Shown in pieces: positions 46,890-51,412 of a stretch of DNA of 64,000 nt. A program made the translations under genes and the position numbers. The notes below the pieces were generated by a model, which was not told the DNA's origin, ran no database searches, and saw nothing but the letters and a program-made list of their open reading frames with translations. Position 1 is the stretch's first letter. Each line of letters opens with the position of its first letter. Origin of the DNA: Natronobacterium texcoconense (GTDB taxonomy: Archaea > Halobacteriota > Halobacteria > Halobacteriales > Natrialbaceae); contig NZ_FNLC01000002.1 in assembly GCF_900104065.1 (NCBI RefSeq), positions 788,995-852,994 on the forward strand, written 5' to 3'.

Positions 46890-47120
46890 ATGGCCGACGT
46901 AGCGTTGGACGACCGCGGTCGTCTCATGCTCCCGAAGGAAATCCGGGAGAAATACGGTGAGCGCTATCACATCGTTCCGCTCTCCGACGGGATCAAGCTA
47001 GTTCCGATCGCGGACGACCCGCTCGAGGCGCTGCGAGACGAGTTCGCCGACGGCGAGAAGTCGGCTGTCGAACATCGTGAGAAGGGACGCAACACTGCCC
47101 TCGACGAAGCCGGCCGGTAA
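46890..47120 (+). CDS. AbrB/SpoVT-domain protein, VapB-antitoxin-like
   Basis: A 76-residue protein. The AbrB swapped-hairpin domain is DVALDDRGRLMLPKEIREKY and RYHIVPLSDGIKLVPIADDP. The C-terminal LEALRDEFADGEKSAVEHRE resembles VapB antitoxins that bind PIN-domain VapC toxins. No VapC is next to it; the next gene is rfcL, 43 bases downstream. I prefer the ATG at 46890, 27 bases after a TATA-like element; an in-frame ATG at 46866 lies within that element. Confidence 0.8.
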   Translation: MADVALDDRGRLMLPKEIREKYGERYHIVPLSDGIKLVPIADDPLEALRDEFADGEKSAVEHREKGRNTALDEAGR

Positions 47121-47163
47121 CGCTCCGCAATCCCTAAACGCGACTCTCACCAACTACGTTTCA

Positions 47164-48654
47164 ATGAGCGACTGGACCGAGAAGTACCGACCGACGACGC
47201 TGTCGGAGGTACGCGGGAACAACAAGGCCCGAGACAAGTTGAAAGAGTGGGCCGACACCTGGGACGAGCACCGGGATGCGGTGATCGTCCACGGCAGCCC
47301 CGGCATCGGGAAGACCTCCGCCGCCCACGCGCTGGCCAACGACATGGGGTGGCCCGTAATGGAACTCAACGCCAGCGACAGCCGCGGCGCGGACGTGATC
47401 GAACGCATCGCGGGCGAAGCCGCAAAGACCGGCACGCTCACGAGCGGCGGCGCGGGTCGACGACTGGTCATCCTGGACGAAGCGGACAACTTCCACGGCA
47501 ACGCCGACTACGGCGGCTCTCGAGAGGTTACTCGCGTCGTCAAGGACGCCAACCAGCCGATCGTTCTCGTGGCAAACGAGTTCTACGACATGAGCCAGTC
47601 GCTTCGCAACGCCTGCGAGACGATCGAGTTTCGGGACGTCTCGAAGCGGTCGATCGTCCCCGTGCTGCGTGACATCTGCCGGCGCGAGGGCATCGAGTTC
47701 GAGGAGGAAGCTCTCGAGTCGATCGCCGAGGATACGAGCGGCGACCTTCGTTCGGCAGTCAACGACCTGCAGGCGGTCGCCGAGGAAGCCGAACGGCTGA
47801 CCGTCGAGGACGTGGTGACGGGCGAACGCGACACCACTGAGGGAATCTTCGACTACCTCGATACGCTCATCAAGGAGGAAGACGCCGAGGGTGCACTGCG
47901 GGCGTCCTACGACGTCGACGAGACGCCCGACGACCTGCTGAACTGGATCGAGGACAACGTGCCGAAAGATTACGAGGGGGAGGAACTGGCTGACGCCTAC
48001 GAGTTCCTCGCGAACGCCGACCGCTGGCTTGGCCGGGTTCGGTCGACGCAGAACTACTCGTACTGGCGCTATGCGACCGACAACATGACCGCTGGCGTCG
48101 CCGCGTCCCGACAGGAGCCGAAAGGCGGCTGGACCCGGTACGGTCCGCCGAGCTACTGGTCGAAACTCGGGCGGACGAAAGGTACGCGAAACACCCGCGA
48201 CGCGATCGCCGAGCGGATCGCCGAGCGAGAGGGGACTAGCGTCGCCACGGCTCGTCGCGAGATCCTCCCGTTCCTCTCGGCGATGACCCATCACTGCAAG
48301 AACCGTGAACTCACCGTCCAGATGGCGGCCGTCTACGAACTCGACGAGAAGGAGGTCTCGTTCGTCACCGGCAGCGGAAAAGACACCAACAAGGTCCAGT
48401 CGATCGTCGAGGATGCCGAAGAACGGCGAACGGAAGCGACCGTCGAACACTCTGGCTCTGCCTTCTTCGGCGGCGAAGACGACGGAGACGAATCGCGAGA
48501 CCAGACCGACGACGAGCCGACCGGAGACTCGAGCGACGACGAGCAAGCGACGATCGCGGCCTCGAGCGACGACGGTGGCTCGACGGAGGTCGAGTCGACG
48601 TCCGAGACGGGAGAGACCGACGACGACCAGTCGGGTCTAAACGACTTCCTCTGA
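47164..48654 (+). CDS. rfcL: replication factor C large subunit
   Basis: A 496-residue RFC-L. Walker A is HGSPGIGKTSAAHAL (about residues 43-57), Walker B is VILDEADNFHG near residue 102, and the lid and collar domains follow. A Ser/Asp/Glu-rich tail (about residues 425-490) ends in QSGLNDFL, a PIP-box-like motif for binding PCNA. It loads the PCNA clamp with the small subunit. The ATG at 47164 gives MSDWTEKYRPTTLSEVRG, the normal family start. Confidence 0.95.
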   Translation: MSDWTEKYRPTTLSEVRGNNKARDKLKEWADTWDEHRDAVIVHGSPGIGKTSAAHALANDMGWPVMELNASDSRGADVIERIAGEAAKTGTLTSGGAGRRLVILDEADNFHGNADYGGSREVTRVVKDANQPIVLVANEFYDMSQSLRNACETIEFRDVSKRSIVPVLRDICRREGIEFEEEALESIAEDTSGDLRSAVNDLQAVAEEAERLTVEDVVTGERDTTEGIFDYLDTLIKEEDAEGALRASYDVDETPDDLLNWIEDNVPKDYEGEELADAYEFLANADRWLGRVRSTQNYSYWRYATDNMTAGVAASRQEPKGGWTRYGPPSYWSKLGRTKGTRNTRDAIAERIAEREGTSVATARREILPFLSAMTHHCKNRELTVQMAAVYELDEKEVSFVTGSGKDTNKVQSIVEDAEERRTEATVEHSGSAFFGGEDDGDESRDQTDDEPTGDSSDDEQATIAASSDDGGSTEVESTSETGETDDDQSGLNDFL

Positions 48655-48739: not shown

Positions 48740-48943
48740 ATGACGACCGACCAGCAGCGCTGTCCGCTCTGTACGGAACAGTACGACGATCGAACGGATC
48801 TCCGGGTCCACCTCGAGGTACAACATCGGAAATCCGAGATCGTCTCGTCGCTGCTCGACCTCCACGGATCGTCCTATTTTGTGCCAGTGGAGGAGTCTGG
48901 GTCGGTTCCAGGCGATCGAGAGCAGCCGGTGCCGCCGGCCTGA
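48740..48943 (+). CDS. small C2H2 zinc-finger protein
   Basis: About 67 residues. A C2H2 finger is CPLCTEQYDDRTDLRVHLEV ending at H with QHR. The rest is a short linker and a proline-rich tail. Such single-finger proteins are common in haloarchaea and some act as regulators. The ATG at 48740 follows a GTG option at 48731. It converges with the gene at 48968. Confidence 0.75.
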   Translation: MTTDQQRCPLCTEQYDDRTDLRVHLEVQHRKSEIVSSLLDLHGSSYFVPVEESGSVPGDREQPVPPA

Positions 48944-48967: not shown

Positions 48968-50167
48968 TCACAACAACCCGACTTCTTCGCCGGCCGCCTG
49001 GAACGCCTCGAGACAGGCGACGACGTCGACGGGTCGATGCGTCGCCATCGGCGTCACCCGGACTCTGCTCGCACCAGTGGGTACTTTCGGCGGCTGGATC
49101 GGCGTTGCGACGACGTTTCGCTCCCTGATCCCGTCGGCGAGGGCGGTCGCGTCCTCCCGGTCGCCGACCACGACGGGGAGAATCTGGGAATCGCCGAGAA
49201 CCTCGAACCCCATTGCCTCGAGGCCGTCCCGGAGGTGGGCGACGTTCTCCCAGAGTTGTTCGCGGGCATCGCTGTGTCGGGCGACGTGCAACGCCTCACT
49301 CGCCGTGGCAGCGGCCGTCGGCGAGAGCCCAGTCGAGGAGACGAACGATCGAGCGTCCTGAATCAGACACTCGATCAGCGCGTCGCTGCCTGCGACGTAG
49401 CCGCCCTGACTGGCGAGTGCCATCGAGAGCGTTCCCAGTTGAACGTCGATGCAATCCTCGAGCCCTTCAGCCTGGACGATCCCGCCGCCGTCGGCGTAGA
49501 GCCCGGTAGCGTGGGCCTCGTCGGCCAGCACCCACGCACCGAACTTCTCGGCGAGGTCACAGATCGACGAAAGCGGTGCGACCGTACCGACCGCCCCGAA
49601 GACGGTGTCAGTCGCGATCAGCCAGGACTCGTCGTCGTCGCCGCGTTCGGCTCGCGTCTCGAGTTTCGACCGCAAATCCTCGAGGCTACAGTGATCGTAG
49701 ACGACCGTGTCGGCACCCGAGAGCCGACAGCCGTCGACGATCCCCGCGTTGTTCGACTCGTCGGAGAAGACGACGTCCGGCTCGAGTGCTGTGAGCGTGC
49801 CGACGTTCGCGGCGTACCCCGAGGAAAACGAGAGGGCGCGATCGGTGCCCTTGACCTCGGCCAGCTGGCGCTCGAGGTCGTGGTGGACGAGCGTGTCACC
49901 AGTGGCTGGCCGGCTCGAACCGGCACCTGTTCCGACTGTCGCGGCGGCCTGTCTGGCGGCGTCCTGTACTCGCTGGTCGGTGGTCAGCCCCAGGTAGTTG
50001 TTCGATCCGAACACCAGCACCTCGTCTGACTCGAGGACCGGTAGATCACCCTCCGGTGGCGGAGCGAAGTGACCCCGCTCGGCCACTCGATCCGCAGGTG
50101 ACAACGTCCGTCGTCGCGCCTCGAGAGACGTCACCCGATCTTCGAGGTCGAACCCGCGGTCTTCCAT
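48968..50167 (-). CDS. AONS/KBL-type aminotransferase fold, PLP lysine replaced
   Basis: A 399-residue protein aligned with 8-amino-7-oxononanoate synthase (BioF) and 2-amino-3-ketobutyrate CoA ligase. Family motifs are FGSNNYLGL (residues 53-61), VGTGAGSSRPATGD (78-91), ADEAHATGL (215-223) and GGYVAGSDA (255-263). At the PLP lysine, GTLSKA in the family, this protein has GTLSMA with M249 (codon 49421-49423). The pyridine-stacking His region, usually NHAS, reads NNAG (N140). It is thus unlikely to be a normal BioF. It stands alone between convergent and divergent genes, with no other biotin genes near. Confidence 0.85.
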   Translation of the reverse strand: MEDRGFDLEDRVTSLEARRRTLSPADRVAERGHFAPPPEGDLPVLESDEVLVFGSNNYLGLTTDQRVQDAARQAAATVGTGAGSSRPATGDTLVHHDLERQLAEVKGTDRALSFSSGYAANVGTLTALEPDVVFSDESNNAGIVDGCRLSGADTVVYDHCSLEDLRSKLETRAERGDDDESWLIATDTVFGAVGTVAPLSSICDLAEKFGAWVLADEAHATGLYADGGGIVQAEGLEDCIDVQLGTLSMALASQGGYVAGSDALIECLIQDARSFVSSTGLSPTAAATASEALHVARHSDAREQLWENVAHLRDGLEAMGFEVLGDSQILPVVVGDREDATALADGIRERNVVATPIQPPKVPTGASRVRVTPMATHRPVDVVACLEAFQAAGEEVGLL

Positions 50168-50533
50168 TCGCGTGAACGGAATCCTCGGCGTGCTTTTATT
50201 CTCACGGTTCCGTTTTGTCGTCTATCATTGACAGAAATAGCGGTCGGATACAGTACACGAACGCGTCTACGGGTCGAAAACGGTAGGGAGAGCCAAAATA
50301 CGTTCGTCTCGGCTGACGTTTTTCGCCGTGTTTCGATCGAGTCGTTCGCTGGACAACGTGATCGAGTCCGCCGATCGGACGAACTATCACGTGACTGATT
50401 AATTGTCGAACGAGTGTCGAATTAAATACTCGAAACGGCCAGTACACTAATATGGAAGTGCTCTAACTCATTCCGATTGGAATAATTCCAAAAGTTAAAT
50501 ACGTGTGAAAATGTAGTTCGGGCAAGCCGACCC
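50168..50533. other. intergenic region with promoter and palindrome
   Basis: AT-rich from about 50400 onward. A 15-base palindrome TTGGAATAATTCCAA at 50477-50491 directly precedes a TATA-like AAAGTTAAATAC near 50492-50503, about 35 bases before the acidic-protein ATG. No gene seen in the rest. Confidence 0.6.
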
Positions 50534-51412
50534 ATGACTAACAGTACGATCGACGACGAGACCGGGGACGGGGGTGGGTTCGACGTCGGCTCGAGCGGGG
50601 ACGAACTGTTCGGCGGGATCGCGGAGGACTCCCAGGACGAGCCGGCAGTCGACGACTGGGCGACCGATCACGAGCGGGTCAGCCAGGCGGTGGAGGATCG
50701 AACTGCCGACTCCGTTTTCGGCGAACTCAAGGCAGACGTCGGGAACGATGCCGACGACGTCCTCGGCGACGAGAGCCCCGACGACATCATCGCGAGCGCG
50801 GACGAGCCGGAACCGGAACCCGAGTGGCCTGTCGGCGACGATCTCGTCGCCGACGAGCAGGAACTGGAAGCGCTGCTGTTGACCGGCCGAACGAAAGAAC
50901 AGGAGTTCCTCTGGGTCGATCCGGCCGACGAAGACGCCGCCACCGACGCCCCATCCGCTCCGGAGGAGACCACCGAGACGGACGACTCTCAGGAGACCAG
51001 CAACGTGGACGACTCTCGAGACACCGATCCCGAACCGGCCGAGACGGACGAGACCACTGCAATCACACCCTCTGCCGGCTCGGAATCCCAGGAGACCGAC
51101 GCGGGTCGATCGACCGACACACGCGAAGATGAATCCGCGTCAGATCGGCTCGAGGAGCCCGCAGGCGAAGCCCTCGAGTCGGAAGCAGGAACTGAAGTCG
51201 TCGATTCGGCGGCACCTCCGACAGACTCCTCGACCGGTTCAGCACCCGAGACCGACGAGCCGAAGCTCACCGCTGACATCGATCCCGATTCCGGCGACGA
51301 AATCGGGAGCGGCGACGAGACGGCGGATGCAGAAACCGACTCCAAAGCCGCCGAGCGAGACGACTCCCCCGGAACAGTTCGCCGGCTGCTGTCGCAACTC
51401 AACCCGTTCTAG
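50534..51412 (+). CDS. long acidic, probably disordered protein
   Basis: A 292-residue protein dominated by Asp, Glu, Ser and Thr. The first 130 residues hold short ordered motifs: DELFGGIAEDSQDEP, VSQAVEDRTADSVFGELKAD and TGRTKEQEFLWVDPADED. The middle is low-complexity acidic. The end, TVRRLLSQLNPF, is a short amphipathic helix that could dock onto a partner or membrane. No family recognised. The upstream palindrome suggests regulation. Confidence 0.7.
   Translation: MTNSTIDDETGDGGGFDVGSSGDELFGGIAEDSQDEPAVDDWATDHERVSQAVEDRTADSVFGELKADVGNDADDVLGDESPDDIIASADEPEPEPEWPVGDDLVADEQELEALLLTGRTKEQEFLWVDPADEDAATDAPSAPEETTETDDSQETSNVDDSRDTDPEPAETDETTAITPSAGSESQETDAGRSTDTREDESASDRLEEPAGEALESEAGTEVVDSAAPPTDSSTGSAPETDEPKLTADIDPDSGDEIGSGDETADAETDSKAAERDDSPGTVRRLLSQLNPF

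Follow-up and report, generated by a model that had tools for sequence, protein, structure and literature searches.

Why would a haloarchaeon keep an intact gene for BioF if the encoded protein no longer has the lysine that binds PLP? This question is raised by a gene in the window, that is, the whole stretch of 64,000 nucleotides of Natronobacterium texcoconense DNA that was analyzed (Table 1). An earlier note claimed that the lysine of the family motif GTLSK is replaced by methionine and the PLP-stacking histidine by asparagine. Both readings are correct, on the minus strand (the earlier note named no strand): the two codons are ATG and AAC, and phmmer alignments to the solved Kbl, ThaOS, and SPT, which located the two positions, agree with them. 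In addition, we found a third catalytic change, glycine at position 191 in place of the serine of FSMDG. The fold had also been described as intact and full length, and the 399-residue protein is full length, with a fold that is predicted to be intact. Its AlphaFold model has a mean pLDDT of 89.7, and the nearest solved folds to the model are alpha-oxoamine synthases (BioF, KBL, SPT, and ALAS; Z of about 46–51) over the full length. Judged from the model, the fold-type I alpha-oxoamine synthase architecture is kept along the whole protein.

Table 1. Features of the lysine-less bioF locus and of the second biotin operon in the same genome
Feature	Position	Strand	Remarks
Lysine-less BioF/AONS-fold gene	48968..50167	−	399 aa plus stop; ATG start; intact ORF
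Met249 codon replacing the PLP lysine	49421..49423	−	ATG; AAG or AAA in every lysine-bearing ortholog
Asn140 codon replacing the PLP-stacking His	49748..49750	−	AAC; motif DESNN
Gly191 codon replacing the PLP-O3'-contacting Ser	49595..49597	−	FSMDG changed to FGAVG
Retained DEAH (Asp216-Glu-Ala-His219)	49511..49522	−	Near-invariant in active and lysine-less proteins
Conserved upstream element GAACCGTGAGAATAAAAG	50193..50210	−	Starts 43 bases before the bioF ATG
rfcL, replication factor C large subunit	47077..48654	+	Convergent neighbor; marker of the ancestral bio locus
Second bioB-bioU-bioF-bioD operon	L067 7611-11725 (G000:C2 about 1131600-1135725)		Intact BioF lysine; no −43 element

A base-call error at one site, as the earlier note pointed out, would not explain both changes. 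A wider error of sequencing or assembly, affecting both codons, is refuted and has practically no probability left. The ortholog in an independent genome, G112 (locus L003; 81% identity to the window protein), has the motifs GSLSM, DESTN, and FGTAG and thus carries all three changes. Furthermore, the lysine is absent in all five members of the genus (g1), with M, M, T, T, and T at the site. Thus, the substitutions are not an assembly artefact. We also considered whether the PLP lysine had migrated elsewhere in the protein. This was rejected, because the alignment shows no conserved alternative lysine. The sole further lysine that is near-invariant among the active orthologs is K106, and just 3 of 18 lysine-less proteins retain it.

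The changes in the lysine-less proteins are concentrated in the active site. Near-invariant in the active proteins and degraded in the lysine-less ones are K249, T246, S191, S135, N139, H140, A218, R20, and the 357–370 loop. These are mainly cofactor and substrate residues, the individual roles being those generally assigned in AONS. Meanwhile, 73 positions, among them D216, E217, and H219, are near-invariant in active and lysine-less proteins alike. Compared with a functional BioF, the window protein has the Asp and His of the DxxH motif (DEAH, 216–219), whereas Met249 stands at the lysine position, Asn140 at that of the stacking His, and Gly191 at that of the O3' Ser. Two side observations concern other copies. 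In L190 and L194 (G100 and G297; lysine-less bioF of g7), the substrate-binding loop has given way to a low-complexity insert, and the terminal helix is conserved. In L189 (G197), L098/L200 (G282), and L040 (G421), the lysine is kept and other active-site residues are lost (KREDD, KHP, and KHG); these copies may be intermediate stages in the loss of the active site.

The gene order at the locus, in most of the Natrialbaceae that we examined, is sucC-sucD ... bioB-bioU-bioF-bioD and then the convergent rfcL. Between bioB and bioF lies a gene that matches BioU NF047886 (E = 5e-101; 338 bits versus a cut-off of 600), and BioU substitutes for BioA. In the window, bioF is the sole biotin gene remaining between rfcL and sucD. 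At the lysine-less loci, the rest of the ancestral bioB-bioU-bioF-bioD is gone or degraded; for instance, bioB of Natrialba swarupiae is reduced to a 52-codon remnant adjoining an intact lysine-less bioF. The window genome (G000) has a complete bioB-bioU-bioF-bioD operon elsewhere, possibly acquired, and the BioF of this operon has the lysine and is about 61% identical to that of the window. A separate complete operon with a lysine-bearing BioF is likewise present in G112 and G380. G145 and G347 have neither bioB nor bioD anywhere in the genome.

The window protein resembles BioF (TIGR00858) in fold, length, ancestral bio locus, and identity (up to 78%) to lysine-bearing haloarchaeal BioF. It differs in having no PLP lysine, stacking His, or O3' Ser and in the absence of the other biotin genes from its locus. 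TIGR00858 is also the best NCBIfam match, and the score of the window protein (338.6 bits) is below the equivalog cut-off of 426.45; the intact second copy, at 414.2 bits, is below it too. The window gene is probably the original bioF of the Natrialbaceae: its former operon partners bioB, bioU, and bioD disappeared from the locus, and bioF alone stayed in place.

To see how far this condition extends, 125 family genomes were surveyed, and 118 of them had a match. About 20 full-length lysine-less orthologs were found across 10 genera: five in g1, six in g7, two in g6, and one each in g3, g8, g10, g14, g15, g20, and g98. The residue at the lysine site of these copies is T, M, A, N, Q, or S. According to the flank genes, most of them lie at the rfcL/sucCD locus. 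The two g6 copies are off the rfcL locus and keep the upstream element described below, which is degenerate in one of them.

On the sucC-sucD-rfcL tree, nine changes are required and at least four are forced by well-supported branches, in a genome set that includes some MAGs, covers about half of the known species, and has a partly unresolved species tree. On this tree, g1 and g7 each form one clade, and some single losses adjoin lysine-bearing sisters (G400 beside G240, and G205 among Natronococcus). The flank genes therefore indicate that the lysine was lost several separate times in the family. A single ancient lysine-less lineage was also considered. The BioF tree groups most of the lysine-less copies (support 0.96), but the flank-gene tree splits them, so that long-branch attraction is likely in the BioF tree and the single lineage was rejected. 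Both this recurrence and the departure of the other biotin genes from the locus were beyond the view of the earlier reader.

Among loci with an intact operon, 0 of 17 lacked the lysine; among those with an orphan bioF or a partial operon, 18 of 26 did. On well-supported branches, there are only three independent pairs, of which on average 2.2 agree and none disagree. The link between orphan state and lysine loss is not significant by this pairs test, because the independent pairs are too few. Many genomes with a lysine-less bioF are without the biotin pathway. We then compared the retention of bioF in an order-wide genome sample, with bioB presence set at E ≤ 1e-60. Within the family, bioF is kept in 16 of 18 genomes without bioB, the exceptions being G273 and G321. 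Outside the family, among about 196 order genomes without bioB, a strong bioF match was found in one (G375, near a contig end), and six further genomes without bioB had weak matches (E from 1e-60 to 1e-69). The difference is significant (Fisher test, P = 5e-21, or 7e-17 with the weak matches), with phylogeny ignored and the counts tallied by hand from the match lists. Thus, outside Natrialbaceae, bioF was lost along with bioB.

The BioY transporter was present in all 23 family genomes tested. Natrialba magadii has been published as a biotin auxotroph, and no biotin genes were reported from its genome (PMC3403918). G071, which is probably this species, has no bioB or bioD, yet it has an intact bioF with the lysine (L199, 8220-9455). 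Orphan bioF genes with the lysine intact were also found in other Natrialba loci (L049, L050, L053, and L059).

Are the lysine-less genes still maintained? Codon models of the lysine-less genes gave an omega of 0.104 in g1 (five genes) and 0.074 in g7 (six genes); omega = 1 fitted worse by 281 and 313 log units, respectively, and was rejected. Two trios with a shared threonine gave 0.083 and 0.107. The lysine-bearing sets gave 0.042–0.070, and the second-operon copies gave 0.098. The values of the lysine-less genes are slightly above those of the active orthologs, and therefore the constraint is relaxed. Pairwise estimates were consistent with the codon models, with synonymous sites saturated in the deeper comparisons. 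In addition, we found no stop codon or frameshift in the bioF locus copies across 118 genomes; in a simple neutral simulation, 0.5% of ORFs were stop-free at 0.35 substitutions per site. The lysine-less bioF genes are under strong purifying selection. They combine lost catalytic residues with purifying selection, as is characteristic of a pseudoenzyme.

The gene also has a conserved element of its own. The sequence GAACCGTGANAGTNAAA, with few mismatches, starts exactly at −43 from the ATG in all locus orthologs with a readable upstream region, with or without the lysine; equivalent sites are found in L061, L063, L065, L066, and L186-L199. The window copy, with AGAATAAAA, is one base off the strict pattern. 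Of 96 family genomes, 76 have a single match to the strict pattern, which lies upstream of bioF; among 296 other genomes, 2 have a match, so the element is almost confined to Natrialbaceae. It is absent upstream of the second-operon bioF copies, and a genome-wide search for a regulon sharing it found none beyond the one site per genome. An in-frame N-terminal extension was rejected as the reason for the conservation, since the leaders contain in-frame stops in several species (for example, L187, L058, and L052); in the window, there is no canonical in-frame start upstream of the bioF ATG. The A-rich part of the element sits at the TATA-box position for a leaderless transcript, and the element is likely a core promoter or operator. 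The element precedes bioF in intact operons too, which suggests that bioF was controlled separately even while the operon was still complete. This control may be the reason for the survival of the gene.

These results bear on what the locus bioF is now. One reading is that it no longer serves a purpose and is a pseudogene in the making, whose ORF has stayed open by chance. The orphaning of bioF from its operon, the eroding catalytic residues, and an omega somewhat above that of the active orthologs fit such decay, as do G273 and G321, two good family genomes without bioB that have lost bioF altogether. However, omega is 0.07–0.11 in the clades where every member is without the lysine, the reading frames are free of stops and frameshifts, the upstream element is conserved, and bioB at such loci does decay. 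We regard this reading as unlikely, and the codon-model test already disfavors it. The earlier note had left a choice between an enzyme losing its function and a repurposed noncatalytic protein. Our results support this interpretation. Catalytic residues are indeed lost, and repurposing is favored over simple decay by the strong purifying selection after the loss, by reading frames that are intact in about 20 genomes, and by the conserved upstream element.

We therefore propose a second role as the better explanation. The locus bioF probably has a noncatalytic role, other than AONS catalysis, that outlives biotin synthesis; we infer this from the selection acting on a lysine-less protein in cells without the pathway, often without a relative to pair with. 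Such a role would have no need for aldimine chemistry. Once biotin synthesis at the locus was lost or replaced, selection on catalysis would end and the active site would erode, while the second role would preserve the gene. The complete loss of bioF in G273 and G321 and the lysine kept in the Natrialba orphans, including G071, speak against it, as do the slightly relaxed constraint and the nonsignificant pairs test. The broader proposal is that this BioF function is independent of biotin and has its own upstream element, that the gene outlives the pathway, and that pseudoenzymes were born here recurrently without a live partner. We give this proposal about an even chance of being right.

The second role would most likely be that of a dimeric scaffold or regulator that binds another macromolecule or a small ligand, comparable to MalY and MalT. 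In that pair, the PLP enzyme MalY contacts MalT directly and thereby represses it (PMC10427625), and the likeness is that of a fold-type I PLP protein acting via protein contact. However, MalY retains PLP and belongs to another subfamily, and there is no MalT here, so the analogy is one of mechanism and not of kinship. The precedent indicates that a PLP-enzyme scaffold is capable of such noncatalytic work.

Because Asp216 and His219 are retained, noncovalent binding of PLP or PMP may be part of the second role. The same two pyridine-ring contacts, both near-invariant, could also mean that the protein is still an enzyme with a different reaction that needs no lysine, or that it senses or stores the cofactor. 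The SPT K265A mutant (4bmk) and ALAS (5txr) hold PLP without an internal aldimine. However, T246, S191, H140, R20, and the 357–370 loop erode in a lineage-specific manner, and one new conserved active site looks unlikely since the erosion differs in each lineage. We consider this explanation improbable.

Could the protein instead be a subunit that pairs with the BioF of the second operon, regulating it or completing its active site? There are precedents. SPT1 (LCB1/SPTLC1) of the same enzyme family has lost the PLP lysine and works with an active partner, and a 2018 review described the eukaryotic serine palmitoyltransferase heterodimer as unique in the alpha-oxoamine synthase family (PMC6148460). 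The window protein resembles SPT1 in the missing lysine and the kept fold (Z 41–45). By contrast, SPT1 cannot work without the lysine-bearing SPT2, and it has lost the Asp and His too (PMC6148460), whereas the window protein keeps Asp216 and His219. In trypanosomatids, a dead paralog of deoxyhypusine synthase is likewise kept by selection, but it activates a live paralog (PMC3663545). Here, both a lysine-less and a lysine-bearing copy are present in G000, G112, G380, G205, and G261, and a partner is possible only in these genomes. In Halobiforma (G145 and G347) and in all six genomes of g7, the lysine-less protein is the sole member of the enzyme family at E 1e-20. Thus, an LCB1-like heterodimer with a second BioF was rejected as the general reason, and we consider such pairing very unlikely.

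The previously known lysine-less alpha-oxoamine synthase is the SPT1 subunit of eukaryotic serine palmitoyltransferase, and in the open-access literature our searches turned up no previous description of a lysine-less BioF. New here are an archaeal case that appears to be partnerless, its several separate origins, and genomes from before and after the loss on one tree. The proposal that a textbook vitamin enzyme has a further, hidden function thereby becomes directly testable. Furthermore, a bioF annotation in these archaea need not imply biotin synthesis.

Finally, two neighbors of the gene had no match in Pfam or NCBIfam. One is a highly acidic protein (MTNST...) encoded at 50534-51412 (plus strand) of the window and conserved next to the bioF locus. 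The other is a small protein with a C2H2-like CPLC...H...H motif, encoded at 48742-48942 (plus strand), convergent with bioF and 25 bases away from it. Relatives of this small protein adjoin rfcL in many family genomes.
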